Virus record (IMG/VR): IMGVR_UViG_3300044712_000851
Location: 1 to 32,884 of that record
Direction: 5' to 3' (one strand)
Length of the DNA stretch: 32,884 bases
Source: a virus
Made by a program: the position numbers and the translations under genes. Positions 264 to 18,325 of this stretch are shown here, in pieces (within the stretch, counting starts at the first letter, position 1; each line of letters starts with the position of its first letter). Under the pieces are notes generated by a model that was not told the origin of the DNA, searched no databases, and was given only the letters and a program-made list of their open reading frames with translations.

Positions 264-292
264 TTGACTTCTTAAGATAGGACCTTTATTAT
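264..292 (+). promoter_or_regulatory. promoter giving a leaderless mRNA
   Basis: TTGACT (264-269), a 17-base spacer and TATTAT (287-292) form a strong sigma-70 type promoter. The -10 box ends 6 bases before the ATG at 299, so transcription should start at or next to that A. There is no room for a Shine-Dalgarno site. It drives the first phage operon. Confidence 0.75.
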
Positions 293-298
293 TAAGTA

Positions 299-634
299 AT
301 GAAACTGCCCAGATTCTATTATGTAGCTAGAAACTACTTTAATGATCACAAACACATCCCTTTTAAGATAGCAAGGCATATTTGGAATGAAGTCCGCTCT
401 CTCTTCAACCGTGCAAGGGGTTTATTCCACGAACATCAGTTTCACTACAACAGTTCCATCCTCGGGGTTGACGGTGGGCAAATACAATTGACCTGTGATT
501 ACTCTAAGTATGGGTATTATTGTGGCAAAGCTTTAAGACTTTATTACGGAAACATTAAAGGCGACGTTGAAATAGCTGAGCCTTATGTAATTAGGAGTGA
601 TAAGCCCAGTAAGACTATCTACCAAGCAAAATGA
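299..634 (+). CDS. hypothetical phage protein
   Basis: A 111-residue protein I do not recognise. It is basic and aromatic in its first half, with an Arg/Lys-rich stretch around residues 20-45, and more polar afterwards. There is no signal peptide or membrane segment. The ATG at 299 is chosen because it lies 6 bases after a good -10 box, making it the first gene of a probable leaderless operon. Its TGA overlaps the next start (ATGA at 631-634), which implies translational coupling. Function unknown. Confidence 0.6.
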   Translation: MKLPRFYYVARNYFNDHKHIPFKIARHIWNEVRSLFNRARGLFHEHQFHYNSSILGVDGGQIQLTCDYSKYGYYCGKALRLYYGNIKGDVEIAEPYVIRSDKPSKTIYQAK

Positions 635-2597: not shown

Positions 2598-2704
2598 GTA
2601 TTTCTATTTGTCCTTACTGCGGAAAAATGATTGATGAGGATTATGATGTTGAACACTACGAGGAGTGTAGGCTGGAGCATGAAGAAAATGACGAGGGGAA
2701 CTAG
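2594..2704 (+). CDS. small zinc-finger protein
   Basis: A 36-residue ORF starting in the ATGA that ends the methyltransferase gene and overlapping the start of the HisRS-like gene. It contains CPYCGK near residues 6-11 and H-x4-C (HYEEC style) near 21-25, which fits a C2HC zinc finger, followed by an acidic tail. Size, overlap on both sides and the complete metal motif argue that it is real. Its role is unknown. Confidence 0.55.
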   Translation: MSISICPYCGKMIDEDYDVEHYEECRLEHEENDEGN

Positions 2705-3338
2705 ACATCTTTTTGGAGACGAAGCTTTAGACTTTCAAAAGGTTACTGAGAGTTTGATTAAAACCGTCACCACTTGGGGATATAAACCTTTCTATCCCTC
2801 AACACTTGCGGATCAGAAGCTCTTTGTAGACAAAGCTGGAGACGAAGTCTTAAACCAAATGTACACCTTTAAGGACAAAGGAGATAGAGACTTATGCCTT
2901 ATTCCCGAAGTAACTGCCGTTGTTCAGAATTTGTATAATGAACACTGGTCTAAAACCCTACCAAAGCCGATTAAGCTCTATTATCTTACTAAATGTTATC
3001 GATATGAACGCCCTCAGGAAGGTAGATATAGAGAGTTCTGGCAGTTCGGAATTGAACTACTTGGCGGAGAGGAAGATATCCTTGTCAGGGATGTTCTTGT
3101 AAATGCTCTTTATAACGTCAATCCACAAGCTTTTGAAAACAATATATATAAATTTAATGGCAAAGTTAAACGGGGTCTGAACTATTATGTCGAAGATGGG
3201 TTTGAAGTAGAAGTTCCCTCTCTTGGTGCACAAAAACAAATTGCTGGAGGCGGAAGATACAAAGAGGGTATCGGATGGGCTATTGGGGTTGATCGGTTAT
3301 TATTGGCTCTAAAAAACCCACTTGACAAAGCGGAATAA
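2679..3338 (+). CDS. minimal histidyl-tRNA synthetase-like core protein
   Basis: A 219-residue class II synthetase-like protein that keeps HisRS signatures. The N terminus (TRGTRHLFGDEA) matches the usual RGT..LLP start. Motif 2 is RYERPQEGRYREF at about 108-120. The HisRS-specific Arg loop RGLNYY is near 165, and motif 3 (GGGRYKEG..GVDRLLL) lies near 189-212. HisRS is normally ~420 residues; here both the insertion domain and the C-terminal anticodon-binding domain are absent. The ATG at 2679 is preferred (2688 is possible); an upstream start at 2631 adds an unrelated extension. It might adenylate histidine, act on another acceptor, or regulate like HisZ. Normal tRNA charging is doubtful. 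Confidence 0.75.
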   Translation: MKKMTRGTRHLFGDEALDFQKVTESLIKTVTTWGYKPFYPSTLADQKLFVDKAGDEVLNQMYTFKDKGDRDLCLIPEVTAVVQNLYNEHWSKTLPKPIKLYYLTKCYRYERPQEGRYREFWQFGIELLGGEEDILVRDVLVNALYNVNPQAFENNIYKFNGKVKRGLNYYVEDGFEVEVPSLGAQKQIAGGGRYKEGIGWAIGVDRLLLALKNPLDKAE

Positions 3339-4885: not shown

Positions 4886-5037
4886 TGAAAATTATACAAG
4901 TAATATCTGAACACAAAAAGAACAAGGCTAACCAACAAAAGCCTGGTAGATTTCACACTAAACGTGGATGGGGTGAGGTAACTGTGGAGGAAAATGGTCA
5001 AATTGTTACCAGACACAGACCTCTGGAACAAACATGA
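4885..5037 (+). CDS. small hypothetical protein
   Basis: A 50-residue basic protein beginning within the upstream TAATG and preceded by GGAGGAGA. Its TGA overlaps the next ATG (ATGA at 5034-5037). The tight fit on both sides supports it as a real gene. It contains a Lys/Asn/Gln-rich helix and a C-terminal strand-like segment. No family recognised. Confidence 0.5.
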   Translation: MKIIQVISEHKKNKANQQKPGRFHTKRGWGEVTVEENGQIVTRHRPLEQT

Positions 5038-5834
5038 AGACAATTGTAGGAATAAGACCCACAGGAAAATTACATATTGGACACTACTTTAGTGTTATTA
5101 AACCAGCATTAGAAGATGATAATGTCGATGTTTTGGTAGCGACTTACCACATGTCCCCTCCAAGCAGGAAAGCGACAAATGAAGTGTGTGTTGAATTAAA
5201 CAGTTTAGGAATACTACCTAAAATGCAAGAGGTGGATGTAGATTTATATTTTAAATTATTATCTGCTTCTAGGGTGGGAGAGCTTGAGAGAATGATTCAG
5301 TACAAGTCTGTAAAAGTCAAAACTCCTCATCTCCTCGTCTACCCAGTTTTGATGGCACACGATTTGGTTGGATATGACAGGGTAATTGTTGGCGAAGACC
5401 AAAAGCAACACGTCGAATATGCCAACACTCTTTTTAAGCGTCTTGGTATGCCTACCATAAAGGGAGACTTTAGGGGTGGAAGAATAATGAGTCTTACTGA
5501 TCCGACTAAAAAGATGAGCAAGTCCGAGCCAAAGGGTTGTTTGTTTTTAGACGACAACTTTGAAGAAAAACTTAAAGGGGCAGTCACCACCCCAGCAGGA
5601 GTTAAAAACCTTAGTTACATAGCCAGTCAGTTTGGAATGAAGTGGCTTCCAAATGACAACAAGGCTTGTAAAGAACATTTGGCAACTGTATTGGAAAAGA
5701 AGTTTGGTAAAATTGGAGAAGAAAACTGTAATATATATTCTGACAACCTATCAACAGTAGTGTCACCAAAGAAGTTTCAAGAGATACTCAAGTTTATAGG
5801 AGTTCCAAAAAGCCAATGGGAAAAATTTACGTAA
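5034..5834 (+). CDS. tryptophanyl-tRNA synthetase-like protein (short)
   Basis: A 266-residue class I synthetase. It keeps the PTGKLHIGHY signature with HIGH at about 14-17, the TrpRS hallmark GEDQKQH near 120, ERMIQYK before it, and KMSKS near 160. Bacterial TrpRS is ~330 residues; the shortening falls mostly in the C-terminal helical region that reads the tRNA anticodon. It should be able to activate tryptophan, but how it recognises tRNA is unclear. It is encoded between a small ORF (4-base overlap) and a metallophosphoesterase (19-base overlap). With the HisRS-like gene it makes two trimmed synthetases within 3 kb. Confidence 0.82.
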   Translation: MKTIVGIRPTGKLHIGHYFSVIKPALEDDNVDVLVATYHMSPPSRKATNEVCVELNSLGILPKMQEVDVDLYFKLLSASRVGELERMIQYKSVKVKTPHLLVYPVLMAHDLVGYDRVIVGEDQKQHVEYANTLFKRLGMPTIKGDFRGGRIMSLTDPTKKMSKSEPKGCLFLDDNFEEKLKGAVTTPAGVKNLSYIASQFGMKWLPNDNKACKEHLATVLEKKFGKIGEENCNIYSDNLSTVVSPKKFQEILKFIGVPKSQWEKFT

Positions 5835-6756: not shown

Positions 6757-7108
6757 GAGAGACTGGATAAGTCACTGGCTTAAAAAGGCTTATGGTCTCA
6801 CAAAAGAAGAAAAGAAAAAACTTTGGGAATACCAAAAAGGAAGATGTGCTATTTGTGGTATTAAACTGAGATTAGATTCTGATTGTAATATTGATCACGA
6901 CCACGGTAAAAATGATTTTAGGGCTAATGGTGTGAAAGGGGTTAGTTATAAAGATAGGCGTGATGCTGTCAATGGTATCGTTTGTTGGCAATGCAATACT
7001 CTGATGGGAAAGTTGGCAAGGCTAGATCCAGATCCACTCATTGCAGCCCAGAAGATTTCACAATACCTGCTTCATCCTCCTGCCCAAGAGGTTTTGACAA
7101 TGGGGTAG
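6740..7108 (+). CDS. endonuclease VII-like HNH/His-Me finger nuclease
   Basis: A 122-residue protein resembling the T4 endonuclease VII family. It has GRCAICG (first zinc pair), the catalytic NIDHDHG, and a second zinc pair in VNGIVCWQCNTLMGKL. These enzymes resolve branched DNA before packaging or nick DNA as homing nucleases. The ATG at 6740 is chosen over a TTG at 6719. Compared with T4 Endo VII (157 residues) it lacks most of the C-terminal helical domain, so a simple nicking or recombination role is as likely as Holliday-junction resolution. Its 3' end carries the -35 box of the next promoter. Confidence 0.75.
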   Translation: MKKKNKRDWISHWLKKAYGLTKEEKKKLWEYQKGRCAICGIKLRLDSDCNIDHDHGKNDFRANGVKGVSYKDRRDAVNGIVCWQCNTLMGKLARLDPDPLIAAQKISQYLLHPPAQEVLTMG

Positions 7109-7122
7109 CAAAGGTACATACT
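7094..7122 (+). promoter_or_regulatory. promoter giving a leaderless mRNA
   Basis: TTGACA (7094-7099), a 17-base spacer and CATACT (7117-7122). The ATG at 7128 follows the -10 box by 5 bases. The -35 box lies inside the upstream nuclease gene. Confidence 0.6.
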
Positions 7123-7127
7123 AAATT

Positions 7128-7442
7128 ATGAATCAACAAGAGTTTTTCAAGTATTTAGAAGAGACCTATAAGGAGGCTCTCGAAATAGTCAGAAAGAAAA
7201 ATGCTGATTATGCAGAAGAAGTTGATCCGTTTAAGAACTTCAAGTTTTCAACCCTCATAAACACTCCCCCAGAACAAGCTATACTTGTCAGGGTTTGTGA
7301 CAAAATGGCTCGGGTTGCCAATCTACTTCAGCCTGGCAAAGAAGCTAAAGTTAAAGACGAAACGATACAAGATACAATTCTTGACATGATCAATTACCTT
7401 GCCATTCTCCGTGCTTACATCTCCGATAAAAAGTCCTCTTGA
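7128..7442 (+). CDS. Nmad1/DUF1599-like protein
   Basis: A 104-residue helical protein. EIVRKKNADYAEEVDPFKNF near residues 19-38 and the C-terminal DTILDMINYLAILRAY match the DUF1599 (nucleotide modification associated domain 1) pattern. The family is common in phages and is proposed to act in nucleotide metabolism or DNA base modification. The conserved K-N-x-DY and the helical acidic positions are present. It is the first gene after a promoter and probably a one-gene unit, since another promoter overlaps its stop codon. Confidence 0.65.
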   Translation: MNQQEFFKYLEETYKEALEIVRKKNADYAEEVDPFKNFKFSTLINTPPEQAILVRVCDKMARVANLLQPGKEAKVKDETIQDTILDMINYLAILRAYISDKKSS

Positions 7443-9266: not shown

Positions 9267-11288
9267 ATGAATACAAATACAAGAGGTTCTGTCGTCCCTG
9301 AAAAAATTAAGTCGTCTTTTAAAGAGTCAGAAAAGTACTTCCCTACACAATTACAACAATTCCAGTTTTTTGATAAATATTCCCGCTTCGATTGGGATAA
9401 AGGACATCGAGAAACTTGGATGGAAACAGTTGACCGAAGTGTAGACTTTCTAAAAGAACTCAGTCTCAACAAACTTTCTCCAGAAGAATACAGTGAAATC
9501 CGTCAGTACATCCTCGAAATGAAGGCTACTCCTTCTATGCGTCTTCTTGCTATGGCTGGTAAGGCGGCGCGTAGGCAAAACGTCTGTATCTACAATTGTT
9601 CCTTTATGCCTGTCGACAGTATTGATGCATGGGTTGAAGCACTTATTATTTCCATGTCTGGATGTGGTGTTGGATTTTCAGTCGAGAAACAATTTGTAGA
9701 TAAACTCCCCTTTGTCATTTCACAGACAAATACCGATCCAATTAATCATGTTATCGAAGATACTACAGAGGGCTGGGCAAAGGCGGTTAAGACTGGGTTG
9801 GAATCTTGGTTTGATGGTCATGATATTGCTTTTGATTACTCACAGATTCGTCCAGCAGGTGCGGTACTTAAAGTTAAGGGTGGTAGGGCTTCAGGTCCAG
9901 AGCCACTCAAAAAAATGCTCGACTTTGCACGTAAAGTCATTCTTAATGCTCAAGGAAGAAAACTCACCTCCCTCGAAGCTCATGACATTATGTGCGAGGT
10001 CGGCAATGCAGCTGTATCAGGCGGAATGAGACGCACTGCAATGATTTCCCTTTTTGACTTTGATGATGATGAAATGAGGAACTGTAAGAATGGAGATCTT
10101 ACGGGTAATGAACAAAGATGGAATGCAAATAACTCAGCTGTTTGGCCTGCAACGATTACAGATACCGACATTAAAAGACAGTTTAAGGAAATGGATGAGG
10201 GTCAACGTGGAGAACCTGGAATCTTTAGTCGCGATGCAGCAAGATCCACAATGCCAACTCGAAGACTGGCTTTGGGTGAAGAGGCTTGGGGTACTAATCC
10301 TTGTGGAGAGATAGTTCTACGTCCTTATGAGTTTTGTAACCTCACAATCGCTGTAGCGAGACCAGACGACACGATAGAAACCCTTAAGGATAAAGTTAGG
10401 GTTGCATCTATAATTGGAACTATTCAATCAATGGGAACAGACTTTCCAGGATTACGGCCTCAGTGGAAGAAAAATTGTGAAGAAGAAAGGTTGTTAGGAG
10501 TCGATATTACTGGGCAGTTGGATTGTCCCATCTTTAATCAAATGTTACAAGATGACGAAGGATATCGAAAGGCATCAGAAGCATTCAAGATTTTAAGAGA
10601 CGTTGCGGTTGAGACAAACAGAGTCTACGCGCAGAGACTAGGAATCAATCAATCCGCGTCAGTTACTTGTGTTAAACCATCAGGAAATTCATCTCAATTA
10701 TTTGGATGCTCTTCAGGTCTTCATGCAAGACATTTCCCTTATTACATCCGCAATGTCAGAGTTTCCGCTCACAGTCCAATCTTCAGCGTCCTCAAGGATG
10801 CAGGAGTTCCAATGGACCCAGAGAACGGTCAGAAAGCAGAAACAGCCGAAACATGGGTTATACACTTCCCAGCCAAGTCTCCAGATGGCGGAAAGATTCA
10901 AGATGATATGACAGTTGAAGATCAGTGCAATGTTTGGCTTAACAACAAACTCAATTGGACAGAACACAATCCGTCATGCACGATTACCTATAAACCAGAT
11001 GAACTAGAGGCATTGACTAATTGGGTAATTAAAAACAAGGATAATGTTGGAGGTCTTTCTTTCTTGCCTCGTTTGGATGCTAAATACGACCAGATGCCAT
11101 ATGAACCCATTTCAGAAAAGCAGTATAATGTGCTCTTATCTGAATTCCCTGCTATAGATTTCAGCCGACTTTACATTTATGAACTAGAAGATTACACTAA
11201 AGCTGCACAGGAACTTGCTTGTATGAGCGGGGCTTGTGAAATTGATTACCAGCCTAATGCGAACGCATCGACTGGGCAGAGTAAGTAG
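9267..11288 (+). CDS. nrdJ: adenosylcobalamin-dependent (class II) ribonucleotide reductase
   Basis: A 673-residue class II reductase of the monomeric RTPR type, which makes deoxynucleotides for phage DNA without oxygen or a small subunit. Seen: YNCSFMP near residue 110 (first active-site Cys), SGCGVGFS near 131, NPCGEI near 344 (thiyl-radical Cys and Glu), FCNL about ten residues later (partner Cys), SSGLHARH, and a C-terminal CMSGAC pair for thioredoxin-type reduction. The ATG at 9267 is preferred; an extension to 9225 would put unrelated residues in front. Cobalamin must come from the host or medium. It overlaps the next gene by 32 bases. Confidence 0.93.
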   Translation: MNTNTRGSVVPEKIKSSFKESEKYFPTQLQQFQFFDKYSRFDWDKGHRETWMETVDRSVDFLKELSLNKLSPEEYSEIRQYILEMKATPSMRLLAMAGKAARRQNVCIYNCSFMPVDSIDAWVEALIISMSGCGVGFSVEKQFVDKLPFVISQTNTDPINHVIEDTTEGWAKAVKTGLESWFDGHDIAFDYSQIRPAGAVLKVKGGRASGPEPLKKMLDFARKVILNAQGRKLTSLEAHDIMCEVGNAAVSGGMRRTAMISLFDFDDDEMRNCKNGDLTGNEQRWNANNSAVWPATITDTDIKRQFKEMDEGQRGEPGIFSRDAARSTMPTRRLALGEEAWGTNPCGEIVLRPYEFCNLTIAVARPDDTIETLKDKVRVASIIGTIQSMGTDFPGLRPQWKKNCEEERLLGVDITGQLDCPIFNQMLQDDEGYRKASEAFKILRDVAVETNRVYAQRLGINQSASVTCVKPSGNSSQLFGCSSGLHARHFPYYIRNVRVSAHSPIFSVLKDAGVPMDPENGQKAETAETWVIHFPAKSPDGGKIQDDMTVEDQCNVWLNNKLNWTEHNPSCTITYKPDELEALTNWVIKNKDNVGGLSFLPRLDAKYDQMPYEPISEKQYNVLLSEFPAIDFSRLYIYELEDYTKAAQELACMSGACEIDYQPNANASTGQSK

Positions 11289-11643
11289 ACTACAGCAACA
11301 GTGTGATTTAGAATTCTCCAAGTTAATTAGAGCAAAAGGTGTTTGTGAGAAGTGTGGAACAAAAAACACAGCTTTCGATACTGCCCATATAATTGGCCGA
11401 AAAAACCTAACACTCCGTTGGGATATAATGAATGCCCTCTGTCTATGTAGGGGATGTCATTTGTATGCCCACCAAAACCCCAAGAACTTCATGAAATGGT
11501 TTGAATCTTCATTTAAGGAAAGATTTGACTATCTTGAGAGGGCAAAAAATATTATATCGTTTAGGTCTGAGGAGGATTACGAGAAGTTGTTAGAGAATCT
11601 CAAAGGGAGAGAGTTCTGGGGGCTTATTCAAATTATTGAGTAA
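11257..11643 (+). CDS. NinG-like HNH protein
   Basis: A 128-residue protein with CEKCG, AHIIGRK, and CRGCHLYAH, a zinc-supported HNH fold as found in lambda NinG and related phage recombination or homing nucleases. The KNLTLRWDIMNALCLC segment between motifs matches that group. The ATG at 11257 lies in the end of the reductase gene. Its 3' end overlaps the oppositely oriented regulator gene by 54 bases, so transcription from both sides would collide there. Confidence 0.7.
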   Translation: MRTHRLGRVSRLQQQCDLEFSKLIRAKGVCEKCGTKNTAFDTAHIIGRKNLTLRWDIMNALCLCRGCHLYAHQNPKNFMKWFESSFKERFDYLERAKNIISFRSEEDYEKLLENLKGREFWGLIQIIE

Positions 11644-12072
11644 TCTAGTTGAGTGGTCCTTAGTTCTACGTCTCTGGTCTTGCATTTGCTGTAACTTTTT
11701 GTGTTCTGGGCAACAATATTTGATTCTTCTATCTCCACTGGGTAAAGGAAACTCTGTATGACACCACTTACACACGCCACTTCTATCCACTTTTTGTTTA
11801 AGTTTTTCTTCTGATCTAGCCTTTTTGATTGAGGCATAGTCGACGTTATTTCTATTAAGAATTAGTCTGATAGCCTCACGACTTAGATTGAATTTTCGAG
11901 CAACATCTGCGGCGGATTTATGTTGATTAAGTATCATATCGACAATAGAGACATCCCTATCGTTTCGGTTTAATATGTAGCTTTTTCTTAGTTGTTCTCG
12001 GTAGCAGTTTTTACACCTTTGTGTCTTAGGTGTCGAGGTTATTCCACCGCACGAAATACATATTCCGTGCAT
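11590..12072 (-). CDS. HTH plus double zinc-finger regulator
   Basis: A 160-residue protein and the only minus-strand gene. A first zinc knuckle pair lies at C5/C8 and C20/C23, a helix-turn-helix (AADVARKFNLSREAIRLIL) at about 53-72, and a second zinc site at C101/C104 with C120/H124. The last ~35 residues are basic and Leu/Asn-rich. The ATG at 12072 lies 8 bases after the -10 box of a strong promoter, so the mRNA is probably leaderless; a GTG at 12090 would lie upstream of the expected transcript start. Domain content mirrors the divergent gene at 12296, so the pair likely forms a regulatory switch. Confidence 0.72.
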   Translation of the reverse strand: MHGICISCGGITSTPKTQRCKNCYREQLRKSYILNRNDRDVSIVDMILNQHKSAADVARKFNLSREAIRLILNRNNVDYASIKKARSEEKLKQKVDRSGVCKWCHTEFPLPSGDRRIKYCCPEHKKLQQMQDQRRRTKDHSTRLLNNLNKPPELSPFEIL

Positions 12073-12080
12073 ATAGGCAT

Positions 12081-12109
12081 ATACTAACACTGATTTGCAA
12101 AACTGTCAA
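12081..12109 (-). promoter_or_regulatory. minus-strand promoter of the regulator
   Basis: Read on the minus strand: TTGACA (12109-12104), a 17-base spacer and TAGTAT (12086-12081). The ATG at 12072 follows 8 bases later. It overlaps the plus-strand promoter at 12095-12123, so polymerase can occupy only one at a time. Confidence 0.72.
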
Positions 12110-12123
12110 GTAATATTTAAAAT
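12095..12123 (+). promoter_or_regulatory. plus-strand promoter overlapping the divergent promoter
   Basis: TTGCAA (12095-12100), a 17-base spacer and TAAAAT (12118-12123). Transcription would begin near 12130, exactly where the predicted outer stem of the leader begins (AGAAGA). Its -35 box sits in the spacer of the minus-strand promoter. Confidence 0.5.
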
Positions 12124-12129
12124 GGTATC

Positions 12130-12290
12130 AGAAGACATCAGAGTGGATCATGGTTGCCCTATCGGCAATCGTTTCCCGAATAAAGGTAAGTGGGTGATTT
12201 AAGTAGGTGCCCACGGGCATCTTCTATAAAACCTCCCTATAAGAGTGTTGGTCAGGAAACATCACCAATAGGGCTAATTAATAATAATAA
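12130..12290 (+). ncRNA. structured leader RNA of unknown class
   Basis: A ~165-base untranslated leader precedes the regulator gene at 12296. Pairings: AGAAGA 12130-12135 with TCTTCT 12220-12225; GGTTGCC 12152-12158 with GGCAATC 12164-12170; GTGGG 12190-12194 with CCCAC 12210-12214; CCCTA 12235-12239 with TAGGG 12269-12273, with TTGGT 12248-12252 and ACCAA 12264-12268 nested inside. It does not match any riboswitch consensus I recall. It could be a cis-regulator of the downstream gene, a protein-binding site, or operator DNA. Confidence 0.45.
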
Positions 12291-12295
12291 CAATA

Positions 12296-12741
12296 TGGCA
12301 AAAAAGCAAACTGACTATAGTCGCGGGTACAGATTAGTTGAACACCTAGAGGGTGGAGGAAACTTGGTTCAATTTGCCAAGTCTGAGGGTATTAGTAAAC
12401 AAAGGGTGTCTCAAATGATCGATGAATTGAATATAAGGGACTTCTATAAAGATATTCTCAAAAAGAGAAAGTCACGCAAGACTAATAAACTTAAAGCCTT
12501 TTTAAGACATTTTGATCGTCGATATTGTAACTATTGTGGAAAACAATACTCCCATGCTCTGAGACCTTTATCTGTTTATTGTTCTCCCTACTGTCACGAT
12601 ATGGCAATTAAGTACAGGGAACGGATTAGATTGAGAAAATATTACAATGAAACCTTTAACGGTCAAATGTACAGACAAGCCCTCTATGCACTACGAAAAG
12701 AGAAGAGACGTGAGGCTAAACTTGACAAACTACAAAAATAG
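12296..12741 (+). CDS. HTH plus zinc-finger regulator (divergent partner)
   Basis: A 148-residue basic protein. A helix-turn-helix (QFAKSEGISKQRVSQMIDEL) lies at about 26-45, and a zinc site is formed by C78/C81 and C96/C100 (YCNYCG, then YCSPYCHD). The C-terminal ~45 residues are Arg/Lys/Tyr-rich and helical. The zinc spacing (CxxC, ~15 residues, C-x3-[CH]) equals that in the divergent minus-strand protein, so the two are probably paralogues or functional counterparts. The ATG at 12296 is preferred; a GTG at 12190 would run through the structured leader. Confidence 0.68.
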
Positions 12742-12751
12742 GTGTTATCTT
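12722..12751 (+). promoter_or_regulatory. promoter giving a leaderless mRNA
   Basis: TTGACA (12722-12727) overlaps the end of the regulator gene. TATCTT lies 18 bases downstream (12746-12751), or TTATCT at 17. The ATG at 12758 is 6-7 bases after it. It would drive the chaperonin operon. Confidence 0.55.
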
Positions 12752-12757
12752 TAAAAA

Positions 12758-13159
12758 ATGAACTTTCTTGCCCGATTGTTTAACAAAACCAAAAACTGGC
12801 AACTCATTGGAGCAACAACTACAGATCCACAGCCAGTAACTCCAGAAATATTGGGAAAGGTATCTGATGATACCATCCAAAAAATGTTATTCGGAACAAC
12901 TTCTTATGTTTGGGAAGATCAGGATACTCACGATATTAGAAAGCAAGAAGTCCTTGGTTCTGAAGAAACATCTCTCAGGCAAGTCTTGTCTCGTGTGGAT
13001 ATGTGGGGTAGGTTTGAAGTTCAGTTAGACGGCAAAAAATATATAGTAGTTAAGGTTCAATCTCCAGTTCTTCCAGTCGTATCAGAAAATCCTGCACCAA
13101 TTCTCCCTTCTTTACCTCCAATCTCTTTGGATGACGTGGGGAAATTACCAGTGAGATAA
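12758..13159 (+). CDS. hypothetical protein of the chaperonin operon
   Basis: A 133-residue protein, not recognised. It starts with a basic segment (NFLARLFNKTKNWQ), has a mixed central part with a strand pattern (GRFEVQLDGKKYIVVKV) and ends in a Pro-rich tail (PAPILPSLPPISL). It is the first gene after a promoter and directly precedes GroES, so it may share the chaperonin's regulation or be a client or co-factor; that is inference from position only. Confidence 0.5.
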   Translation: MNFLARLFNKTKNWQLIGATTTDPQPVTPEILGKVSDDTIQKMLFGTTSYVWEDQDTHDIRKQEVLGSEETSLRQVLSRVDMWGRFEVQLDGKKYIVVKVQSPVLPVVSENPAPILPSLPPISLDDVGKLPVR

Positions 13160-13162
13160 AGT

Positions 13163-13429
13163 ATGGCTGCCATAGTACCACTAAATAATTACGTCGTTGT
13201 TGTTGAAGCTATTACAGACCCGATTAAAAAGGGTAGGTTTTATTCGACTGATGAAGTACATGAAATCAAAAGAGGATCTGTTGTGGGTGACAAATCTCAG
13301 GGAAAAGAGTCCCTTTTGGATAAAGAAGTTTTCTACAAGACAGAGGATGCGATTAGTTTGAAGTTTAATGATGAAAATTTAGTCATAATCGATAAGTCTA
13401 AATTATTAGCTTTTACATATAATGCCTAA
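13163..13429 (+). CDS. groS: GroES-like co-chaperonin
   Basis: An 88-residue protein with the GroES barrel pattern: PLNNYVVV at the start, RGSVVG in the middle, and KEVFYKTED...ENLVIIDKSKLLAF at the end, matching V-YGKYAG...EYLIV-E-DILA. GroES is ~95 residues. The mobile loop tripeptide that docks into GroEL (IVL in E. coli) is replaced by an RFY-type sequence (KKGRFYST), so it may be adapted to the phage GroEL beside it. It overlaps groEL by eight bases. The divergence makes it recognisable mainly from context plus pattern. Confidence 0.75.
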   Translation: MAAIVPLNNYVVVVEAITDPIKKGRFYSTDEVHEIKRGSVVGDKSQGKESLLDKEVFYKTEDAISLKFNDENLVIIDKSKLLAFTYNA

Positions 13430-15044
13430 AGTAAAGAAAAAGATTTTATTTAACAAAGATGCCAGACAAGCTCTGATTAGAGGAGTCTCTGTTTTGGCTA
13501 AAGCAGTTACGACTACGCTTGGTCCACGCGGAAGGAACGTTGGTTTGGGGAGAAAATGGAATGCTCCTAAGGTTGTTCACGACGGTGTCTCTGTTGCCAA
13601 AGAAGTAGAAGTCGATGATCCATTTGAACAGATGGGTGTGGACATGGTTAGAGAAGCAGCAGAAAAAACCAATACTCAAGCTGGTGATGGAACAACCACT
13701 TCAATTCTATTAGCCGAACAAATAGCCTTAGCTGGAGACAAAGAAGTTGAAACACATGGAGCAAACCCAATGGCTATTCAACGAGGTCTTCAAACCGCTG
13801 GTGAGATAGTCTCCAAAAAACTTCTAGAGATGACTTCTTCAATTGATAGTTCAGAACAAATTACCCAAGTCGCCACTGTCTCTTCAGCTGACCCCGAGGT
13901 TGGTAAAAAGATTGCTGAAGCAGTTGAACGTGTCGGTAAAAAAGGAGTCATTTATGTAGAAGAGGGTAAGGGATTGGATACTTCGATAGAATACAAAGAA
14001 GGTATGGAATTTGACCGAGGTTATGCTTCACCTTACTTTGTCACAGATAATGAACGAGAGGAAACTGAAGTTTCTAATCCATACATCTTTATGACTGCCG
14101 AAAGGATAGTTACCAACAAGCAAATTATGCCTATCCTTAATGCAATTGGAAACATTGAAAAGTCAGATGGTTTTAATGTAGTTATTATTGCTGACAAAGT
14201 AGATTATGAAGCTTTGGGTACTTTATTTGTCAATCACTCAAAAGGAGTCTTGGGTGCTATCCCTATAGAAGCTCCAGGATTCGGAGATAAGCGCGAGGAA
14301 ATACTTGAAGACATCGCGGTTCTTACTGGTGGTCAAGTCTTTTCACCTAAAAAAGGAATGTCTTTTGATCAAATAGACCCGTCAATCTTTGGTAGGGCTG
14401 ATAAAGTTTGGTCTGGCAAGAGTTCCTCAAAAATAATTGGAGGAAAGGGAGACACAGAAGTTATTTCTCTTCGTGTTAAACAACTTGAGAATCAGTTGTC
14501 AAAAGAAACCTCTGAATTTGAAAGAGAAAAAATTGAAGAAAGAATTGCGAGACTTGTGGGAAGTGTTGCGATAATCAATGTTGGGGCTGCAACAGAGACA
14601 GAACTTCACGACAGGAAAGAAAGAATGGTTGATGCTGTTGCTGCTACTAAGGCAGCTGTAGCCGAGGGTATTTTGCCTGGAGGTGGAATAGCCTTACTTC
14701 GTGCGAGAGAAGAACTTAAAAAGACCACCGTTGAAAATCCAGAGGAGCAAATAGGAATCAACATCTTATATGAAGTATTAGGAAGACCAGTTGAGAGACT
14801 TCTTGAACTTGCCAATATTAAAGACTCAAAGACAGCCCTAAAGGAAATAATGAGTTCTAAAGATCCTAACTATGGATGCAATGTTTCTACTGGTGAAATG
14901 GGAGATCTTATAAAATTGGGAATTATCGATCCGACAAAAGTTATCCGCACCGCTCTTCAAAATGCCATATCAGTTGCTGGAATTGTCATTACCACAGAGG
15001 TTTTGATCGCTGTTACGGATATTGTGGAAGGAGGCGAGTCTTAA
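13422..15044 (+). CDS. groL: GroEL chaperonin
   Basis: A 540-residue 60-kDa chaperonin. The ATP site is intact: TTTLGPRGRNV near residue 31 and AGDGTTT near 87-93, and the equatorial, intermediate and apical regions are colinear with bacterial GroEL, including PGFGDKREE and AVAEGILPGGG. The usual Gly-Gly-Met tail is missing; the protein ends in EGGES. It folds proteins inside a double ring with GroES, and in phages it typically aids the major capsid protein. It overlaps GroES, and a strong AAGGAGG at its 3' end serves the small ORF that follows. Confidence 0.95.
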   Translation: MPKVKKKILFNKDARQALIRGVSVLAKAVTTTLGPRGRNVGLGRKWNAPKVVHDGVSVAKEVEVDDPFEQMGVDMVREAAEKTNTQAGDGTTTSILLAEQIALAGDKEVETHGANPMAIQRGLQTAGEIVSKKLLEMTSSIDSSEQITQVATVSSADPEVGKKIAEAVERVGKKGVIYVEEGKGLDTSIEYKEGMEFDRGYASPYFVTDNEREETEVSNPYIFMTAERIVTNKQIMPILNAIGNIEKSDGFNVVIIADKVDYEALGTLFVNHSKGVLGAIPIEAPGFGDKREEILEDIAVLTGGQVFSPKKGMSFDQIDPSIFGRADKVWSGKSSSKIIGGKGDTEVISLRVKQLENQLSKETSEFEREKIEERIARLVGSVAIINVGAATETELHDRKERMVDAVAATKAAVAEGILPGGGIALLRAREELKKTTVENPEEQIGINILYEVLGRPVERLLELANIKDSKTALKEIMSSKDPNYGCNVSTGEMGDLIKLGIIDPTKVIRTALQNAISVAGIVITTEVLIAVTDIVEGGES

Positions 15045-16763: not shown

Positions 16764-17642
16764 ATGACATCAGCAGGTTACAAAGCATTTATAGAAAACG
16801 AGTTTGATATCCTTGATAGGGACAGTAATATAGTGCCTTTCAAACTCTTCGATGTCCAAGCAAAGTATCTCAAACTCATGGGAGAAGACTACCGCGACAT
16901 GGAGGGTGTTAGGGAAATTATACTTAAAGCCCGACAGGAGGGAATGTCTAGTTTTGTCCTTGCACTTTTCACTGTTGATTTTATCACCCATCCAAATTCA
17001 ATCAGTATTTGTATAGCTCACAAAAAGGACGCTACCCAGAAGCTTTTCAAAAAGGTTAAATTTTATATTGATAGCTATTGTAAAAAGCACGGCTTTGATA
17101 CCGACAGCTATCTTTTGTCAGATAACAAAAACGAAATTGAATCAAGAGCTAACGGTTCTTACTTCTATCTGGGTACAGCTGGATCTAAAGTTGGAGGTCG
17201 CGGAGGCACAGCACAAAATATTCTTTTTTCAGAGGCGGCATTCTATCAAGATACAGACCTTATTACCGCCCAAGAAATCATTGAAGGTTCAGCTCAACAG
17301 GTTTCACAAGGAGCTGGAAAAATTTTTATAGAATCTACGGCTAATGGTTTTGGAAATTACTATCAAGTTGAATGGGAACGTGCAGTTAAACAGCAGAGTG
17401 CTTATCACCCTAGATTTTTTAGCTGGGAAGAGTTTTATTCCGATGAGTGGGTAAAGGAAAAGATTAAGGCTTTCCAAAGTGAGGATAAATTTAAACAGGA
17501 ATATCCAAGAACACCAGAGGAAGCTTTTATTAGATCAGGTACTCCTTTCTTTGACATGCAAAAAGTTGATGAACAATTAAGAACCAATGCCATAGAGCCA
17601 TTAAGACAAGGAAGACTTGCTACAGATGGTGAGTGGATTTAA
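16764..17642 (+). CDS. terL: terminase large subunit, ATPase part
   Basis: A 292-residue protein equal to the N-terminal half of a large terminase. The Walker A-like loop KARQEGMSS is near residue 55, Walker B ILFSEAAF near 153 and the coupling motif ESTANGFG near 190. It then has the usual region up to EAFIRSGTPFF and stops at TAA 17640-17642, where an ordinary TerL would run on into the nuclease domain. It pumps DNA into the procapsid at the portal vertex. The nuclease half is encoded by the next ORF in the -1 frame; one extra T in the TTT run at 17638-17640 would join the two. Confidence 0.85.
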   Translation: MTSAGYKAFIENEFDILDRDSNIVPFKLFDVQAKYLKLMGEDYRDMEGVREIILKARQEGMSSFVLALFTVDFITHPNSISICIAHKKDATQKLFKKVKFYIDSYCKKHGFDTDSYLLSDNKNEIESRANGSYFYLGTAGSKVGGRGGTAQNILFSEAAFYQDTDLITAQEIIEGSAQQVSQGAGKIFIESTANGFGNYYQVEWERAVKQQSAYHPRFFSWEEFYSDEWVKEKIKAFQSEDKFKQEYPRTPEEAFIRSGTPFFDMQKVDEQLRTNAIEPLRQGRLATDGEWI

Positions 17643-17644
17643 AA

Positions 17645-18325
17645 ATGACAGATCAAAAAACATTTAGACCAGACATTGCAGGACTACAAGCATATCGTCT
17701 TTATAGGGAACTTGAAAAAGACGAACAGACCTGCATCTTTGCCGACCCTTCAGAGGGGAGAGATTTCTGTGCTGCTGTGGTTGTAAGTAAAAAGTATGCA
17801 GATTATCCCTTTGTCTATAACCAGCATACCGAAAGTAGTCAGTTTGGTTATGATCTGCATAAAATTGCCAAATATATCCACCACATGACGGGTATGTGGC
17901 CTACAATAGCAATCGAACGAAATACTGGACAAGCAACAATCCACGTTTTACAAGAGCTTAACTATCCAAATCTGTTTAGAATGAGGATCTTTGACCATAC
18001 CAGCGTCCAAGAAAGCTCAAAGATAGGATGGTTGACCAACATGGCTACCAGAAAAAAGATGTTGGATGACTTAGCAATGGCTATCAGACAAGGAATATTA
18101 AAAATTTATGACAGAGAAATTCTTTATCAGATGGGTAGTTTTGTTATTAAACAGAAAAAAGGATCAACGGGAAGAGCTGAGGCAGAATCTGGAAAGAATG
18201 ACGATTTAGTTATCGCAACCGCAGGAGCTTGGCAGTTATATTCCCTCGTGCCATCTTTTGATTATGAAGATTACGAAACCCCAGAAGTGAGAAAAGAGGA
18301 ACGGGAAAAATGGAGATTTAGATAA
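17645..18325 (+). CDS. terL: terminase large subunit, nuclease part
   Basis: A 226-residue protein equal to the C-terminal RNase H-like nuclease of TerL. Acidic metal ligands lie in FADPSEG near residue 32, AIERNTG near 89 and NDDLVIA near 186. The ATG at 17645 lies two bases after the stop of the ATPase gene, so ribosomes could reinitiate; a GTG at 17633 is also in frame. It cuts concatemeric DNA at the start and end of packaging. With the ATPase part it equals a normal ~520-residue terminase cut in two. Confidence 0.82.
   Translation: MTDQKTFRPDIAGLQAYRLYRELEKDEQTCIFADPSEGRDFCAAVVVSKKYADYPFVYNQHTESSQFGYDLHKIAKYIHHMTGMWPTIAIERNTGQATIHVLQELNYPNLFRMRIFDHTSVQESSKIGWLTNMATRKKMLDDLAMAIRQGILKIYDREILYQMGSFVIKQKKGSTGRAEAESGKNDDLVIATAGAWQLYSLVPSFDYEDYETPEVRKEEREKWRFR

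Follow-up and report, generated by a model that had tools for sequence, protein, structure and literature searches.

The locus considered here raises the question of what two small genes, P0001 and P0002, are doing back to back across a shared intergenic region in front of the structural genes of a phage. The window, by which we mean the whole stretch of 32,884 nucleotides analysed, represents bases 1–32884, or the first third, of a 96,884-base (96.9-kb) viral record, and the terminase, portal and major head proteins recognised in it identify its source as an uncultured tailed phage. The genes of the first 52.7 kb are carried by the plus strand and those past 52.7 kb mostly by the minus strand, with P0001 the sole minus-strand gene recognised in the former region (regulators are often the lone opposite-strand gene in an arm otherwise transcribed from one strand). 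The pair lies between nucleotide-metabolism genes and a chaperonin/structural block, just upstream of the capsid genes, and we suggest that the two proteins regulate transcription locally, forming a control node before this block, a reading which we favour tentatively and with slightly less than even confidence.

Table 1. Features of the divergent gene pair and its immediate surroundings, in window coordinates.
Feature	Position	Strand	Remarks
HNH endonuclease, NinG/Rap-like	11236–11643	+	Convergent with P0001, with a 3' overlap of ~54 bp
P0001, 160 aa	11590–12072	-	N-terminal zinc ribbon, HTH, C-terminal treble-clef-like module
P0001 promoter, TTGACA-17-TAGTAT	12081–12109	-	TG before the -10; 8 nt from the -10 to ATG 12072
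Weak promoter-like site, TTGCAA-17-TAAAAT	12095–12123	+	Proposed in the original prediction; not conserved in L033
Inverted repeat / long hairpin, ~120 bp	12156–12274	+	Conserved as L033 3532–3646
Outer arms of the repeat	12156–12162 and 12268–12274		
Inner arms of the repeat	12171–12176 and 12255–12260		GTTTCC and GGAAAC
P0002, 148 aa	12295–12741	+	HTH and C-terminal CxxC-x14-C-x3-C; no N-terminal ribbon
Strong promoter, TTGACA-18-TATCTT	12722–12751	+	6 nt upstream of ATG 12758

The same slot was found in L033, a 21.9-kb contig identified by a portal-protein search and having a major capsid protein which is 90% identical. In both phages the order is RNR, HNH gene, minus-strand gene, plus-strand gene, the gene starting at ATG 12758 or its homologue, chaperonins (GroES/GroEL-like), terminase, portal and capsid, and the HNH neighbour is kept in L033 at 49%. 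The ATG 12758 gene directly follows P0002 and opens the downstream chaperonin/structural gene block, and a TTGACA promoter similar to the one in front of it is present at the equivalent place in a further phage, L035 (terminase 63%).

Other features of the record and its relatives include a phage-encoded chaperonin GroEL (PF00118, window 13163–15044) preceded by a GroES-like gene, a pair also kept in L033, and a large terminase (window 16764–18325) made up of two adjacent ORFs for the ATPase and nuclease parts, an arrangement shared with L031, L033 and L035, with a single ORF in L032. The RNR homologues of L033 (1–2559), L031 (3–3095), L023, L024 and L028 carry apparent large insertions (intein-like or split) when referred to the 687-aa RNR gene of the window. 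Anticodons for all 20 amino acids are provided by 36 tRNA genes (L003 15463–19857 plus L004 384–4218, corresponding to record 68.3–77.1 kb), and the tRNA region includes one tmRNA-like gene with a predicted tag (EISKSLLKCQPLEKLLSV) which looks atypical. There is also a histidyl-tRNA-synthetase-like core (window 2631–3338; PF13393, 5e-18) and a Trp/Tyr-type synthetase which is unusually short at 266 aa (window 5034–5834; PF00579, 1e-24). A search of bacterial genomes with the MCP gave no match, and a terminase search for the host returned one distant MAG contig only.

P0001 and P0002 are real genes whose frames each have the best codon score of the six at their own place, and both ORFs lie where the original prediction had put them, transcribed apart. 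The P0001 ORF can also open at GTG 12090, but this codon is located at the -10 hexamer of the gene's own promoter; ATG 12072, with which the conserved Met of the homologue in L033 is aligned, was taken as the likely start. The HTH (P0001 residues ~43–79; helices at ~24–44 in P0002) is followed in each protein by the zinc module which had been predicted, with C101xxC104 and C120-x3-H124 forming CxxC-x15-C-x3-H in P0001, and C78xxC81 and C96-x3-C100 the equivalent in P0002. P0001 has in addition an N-terminal CxxC-x11-CxxC zinc ribbon which is absent from P0002 and had been overlooked earlier. Structure prediction had been proposed as a check, and AlphaFold models built from a five-member family alignment contained a confident HTH (pLDDT about 90) in P0002 and in P0003, the L033 counterpart of P0001, though with a pTM of only about 0.4 for the models as a whole. 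In fold comparison the modelled HTH resembles the DeoR DNA-binding domain and the HTH of the Tn552 resolvase (recombinase), with Foldseek scores which are weak overall, and a PDB profile search also returned KorA-type repressors and resolvase HTHs. This likeness to KorA-type and DeoR/resolvase-type proteins is local to the HTH, with no common architecture outside it; the proteins contain no catalytic resolvase domain and PF00239 is absent from the record. P0001 and P0002 are putative DNA-binding proteins.

The two proteins belong to one family as diverged paralogues, a relationship which emerges from sequence comparison by way of L033. A direct comparison of P0001 with P0002 gave no match (BLASTP E = 0.55), and P0002 is barely similar to P0005, its positional counterpart on the plus strand of L033, a protein having a zinc ribbon, an HTH and a zinc module (E = 0.002 in a single BLASTP comparison). 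The L033 minus-strand protein P0003, however, shares 38% identity with P0001 (phmmer E 2.5e-23 to about 1e-22), and when searched against 10,153 ORFs it also recovered P0006 from L035 (8.7e-14), P0005 (6.5e-5) and P0002 (8.6e-5). No others passed the inclusion threshold, the next match (0.035) being an HNH protein from L053 with the same C-terminal zinc module. As P0003 matches all four of these proteins, both genes of the window can be placed in one family, which bears out the claim of an unfamiliar HTH-zinc family with two members here. The search for homologous divergent pairs which had been proposed with it returned the same pair in the same slot of L033, so homologues do occur as divergent pairs, and the arrangement is conserved in two phages.

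Members of the family were found in three phages only in the collections searched. P0001 and P0002 had no direct relatives in IMG/VR or among deposited phages, the best matches to P0006 reached only E about 0.2, and profile searches of 24 related records added no full family members; there was no syntenic phage among the ribonucleotide reductase relatives, and searching for loci via the neighbouring gene and via a P0001/P0003 alignment returned L033 again and nothing further. A tree of the five family proteins had branches too long for resolution. L035 has a single member, P0006, which is encoded on the plus strand and directly precedes the homologue of the 12758 gene. Divergent from the P0006 gene is a 66-aa ORF (L035 4193–4390, minus strand) which by eye resembles a Phd antitoxin (MKRISMRELQKSSRKIFDN...); it has a TTGACA promoter of its own and no Pfam match.

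No family protein has a characterised close homologue in the searches made, and their phage sequence and fold neighbours are often annotated as HNH endonucleases. HNH-type endonucleases find their DNA by means of zinc ribbon, HTH and treble-clef modules, and the main rival to a regulatory role, which we regard as somewhat unlikely, is that P0001 and P0002 are accessory halves or leftovers of HNH-type (homing) endonucleases which lack the nuclease domain and regulate nothing, persisting as binding proteins in their own right or as selfish remnants subject to drift. This would explain why P0001, P0003 and P0006 match the HNH families phrog_1271, phrog_15471 and phrog_20467 over their non-HNH part, why the L053 HNH protein bears the same zinc module and why HNH proteins are among the best viral fold neighbours, and it fits with a conserved HNH gene being the immediate neighbour of P0001. 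Zinc and HTH accessory modules are shared with phage HNH endonucleases (phrog_1271 and phrog_15471), but the nuclease domain itself was matched in none of the five family proteins (no HNH Pfam match in P0001 or P0002 at E up to 1, or in P0003, P0005 or P0006 at E up to 0.1). Furthermore, the P0001 and P0002 reading frames are intact, and the pair, its order and a strong promoter have been conserved while the sequences diverged to 38% identity, which points to function and away from decay. Profile searches also gave weak to moderate matches over the HTH/zinc region to two families of unknown function, phrog_2308 (P0006 at 1.3e-6, P0001 only at 0.015 and no match for P0002) and phrog_1333 (P0003 at 3.3e-4), neither of which is described as forming divergent pairs in the search results obtained.

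The promoters were assessed by means of a weight matrix for which 15 other promoters from the record served as the training set (scores 13.4–24.5). The P0001 promoter ranked 13th of 193,688 positions and is kept in L033 (3512–3484, TTGACA-17-TATTAT) with an even higher score, and by this matrix it is real, beyond chance. The P0006 gene of L035 likewise has TTGACA-17-TATATT 7 nt upstream of its ATG. Taking as leaderless those genes with the -10 hexamer 5–10 nt before the start codon and no Shine–Dalgarno sequence between them, P0001 falls within this class with its gap of 8 nt, and its mRNA is predicted to be leaderless or nearly so. Ten other genes share the layout with the -10 just before the ATG, making eleven with strong sigma70-like sites (matches of at least 10/12) 5–8 nt before the ATG, compared with ~0.1 per gap position elsewhere, and from this consistent spacing we infer that the phage makes general use of leaderless mRNAs. 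TTGACAaa-N15-TATAAT-like promoters 5–8 nt before an ATG occur record-wide (e.g. window 264–299, 7094–7128 and 12722–12758), with further examples at record 57801, 68333 and 79980 (minus). We also note, by eye, an 8-bp perfect palindrome (TTTGCAAA, AACATGTT) within the minus-promoter spacer of each of the two phages (window 12094–12101; L033 3495–3502), which is a possible operator.

The plus-strand site is of a different quality, with a score of 9.4 (rank 54) which is below all 15 training promoters (≥13.4), and the chance of a site like this arising on the plus strand of the intergenic region is ~6%; no site scoring well by the matrix was found at the equivalent place in L033. The original prediction had described the plus and minus promoters as interlocked and mutually exclusive, and as the geometry of a bistable switch of the lysis/lysogeny type. 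The two sites do exist and interlock where it had placed them, the divergent HTH proteins share one intergenic region in both the window and L033, and P0001 has a leaderless-type promoter like that of lambda and PY54 cI (PMC4488713). However, interlocked divergent pairs occur in the record at a frequency near that expected by chance (3 distinct pairs under a 9-of-12 rule versus about 1.7, as estimated from 125 sites on the plus and 117 on the minus strand), and the geometry, while real, is no evidence of function. Given these counts and the missing plus site in L033, we dropped interlocked promoters as the main mechanism. A lysogenic switch is further disfavoured as neither a tyrosine integrase (PF00589) nor a serine recombinase/resolvase (PF00239) was found in the 96.9-kb record, which is possibly incomplete, in searches with positive controls, and the genes present (36 tRNAs, chaperonins, RNR and tRNA synthetases) resemble those of a virulent phage. 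Since L035 carries one family member only and in the other orientation, a bistable loop of two genes is not a general feature, and overall we consider such a lambda-like switch very improbable.

A new and unexpected addition to the regulator pair is the conserved inverted repeat ahead of P0002. Its arm pattern, CCCTAT-C-GG-(5)-GTTTCC, is followed by an inverse copy near the P0002 start, with a conserved CTCCCTATAA (12233–12242) between the arms, and neither the arms nor CTCCCTATAA occur elsewhere in 1.17 Mb of compared sequence. Comparison of the 15 pairs between the window and L033 revealed three which had changed, each on both sides (A-U to G-C, G-C to A-U and C-G to U-A), and one outer pair which was lost in L033; sliding the partner by 1–3 columns destroyed this compensatory signal. 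The repeat score was reached by 6/400 and 17/400 single-sequence shuffles, making each copy alone only moderately unusual, and a covariation shuffle control gave 60/500, noting that two sequences cannot give a strong control. A leader peptide at 12122–12202 was also considered, by eye, and rejected, as its start sits in the -10 box and the peptide is without a conserved equivalent in L033.

In the leader of P0002 the repeat may form a hairpin, or it may provide a set of paired operator sites; it may even be the main player at this locus, as a structured RNA of ~120 nt acting as the P0002 5' leader or as a small RNA in its own right, in which case the zinc proteins would either bind RNA or simply be encoded next to the element. 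The window and L033 share the fold, with the three compensatory pairs and a conserved C-A mismatch, and we lean slightly towards RNA because the internal loop is unequal between the copies (5x4 vs 5x5), which suits an RNA above a fixed DNA site, and the middle CCCTAT has stayed constant although both arms changed together. Nevertheless, all of the pairs are Watson–Crick and so would be explained equally well by a DNA inverted repeat, only two sequences are available, the z-scores for folding reach only a modest -2.6 and -1.7, and no Rfam family was matched, and we think it fairly improbable that a structured RNA is the principal element here.

Returning to the regulatory role which we prefer, the locus is comparable with the CI/Cro systems of lambda and the telomere-phage PY54, which also have two divergent HTH proteins, one intergenic control region and leaderless mRNA (predicted here, and mapped by RACE for both genes in PY54; PMC4488713). 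In contrast to these, the proteins here are zinc-module HTH proteins of another family which adjoin structural genes, integration genes were not found, the plus promoter is weak, and operators and mutual repression are putative. We propose that P0001 would be made from its strong sigma70-type and probably leaderless promoter and so be available once host polymerase meets the DNA, with P0002 expressed from a weak or activator-dependent promoter behind the conserved repeat, which would serve either as a pair of operators or as a 5' leader that folds. The two proteins would probably regulate their own genes and, in whichever direction this runs, one another through the 222 bp between the genes, and would in this way time the expression of P0002 and possibly of the structural block behind it. 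A bolder version, to which we give little credence, is a decision or timing switch in which a paralogue with a leaderless early promoter is combined with one behind a 120-nt structured leader, joining transcriptional with RNA-level control at a single node before the capsid genes.

The locus presents a candidate pair of phage regulators which is conserved, plausible and of ordinary appearance, accompanied by a conserved inverted repeat. A regulatory role, if true, would provide a function for small HTH-zinc phage proteins whose present annotation is either unknown or HNH endonuclease, and would give access to the regulation of an uncultured group of phages with tRNAs for all 20 amino acids and many putatively leaderless promoters.
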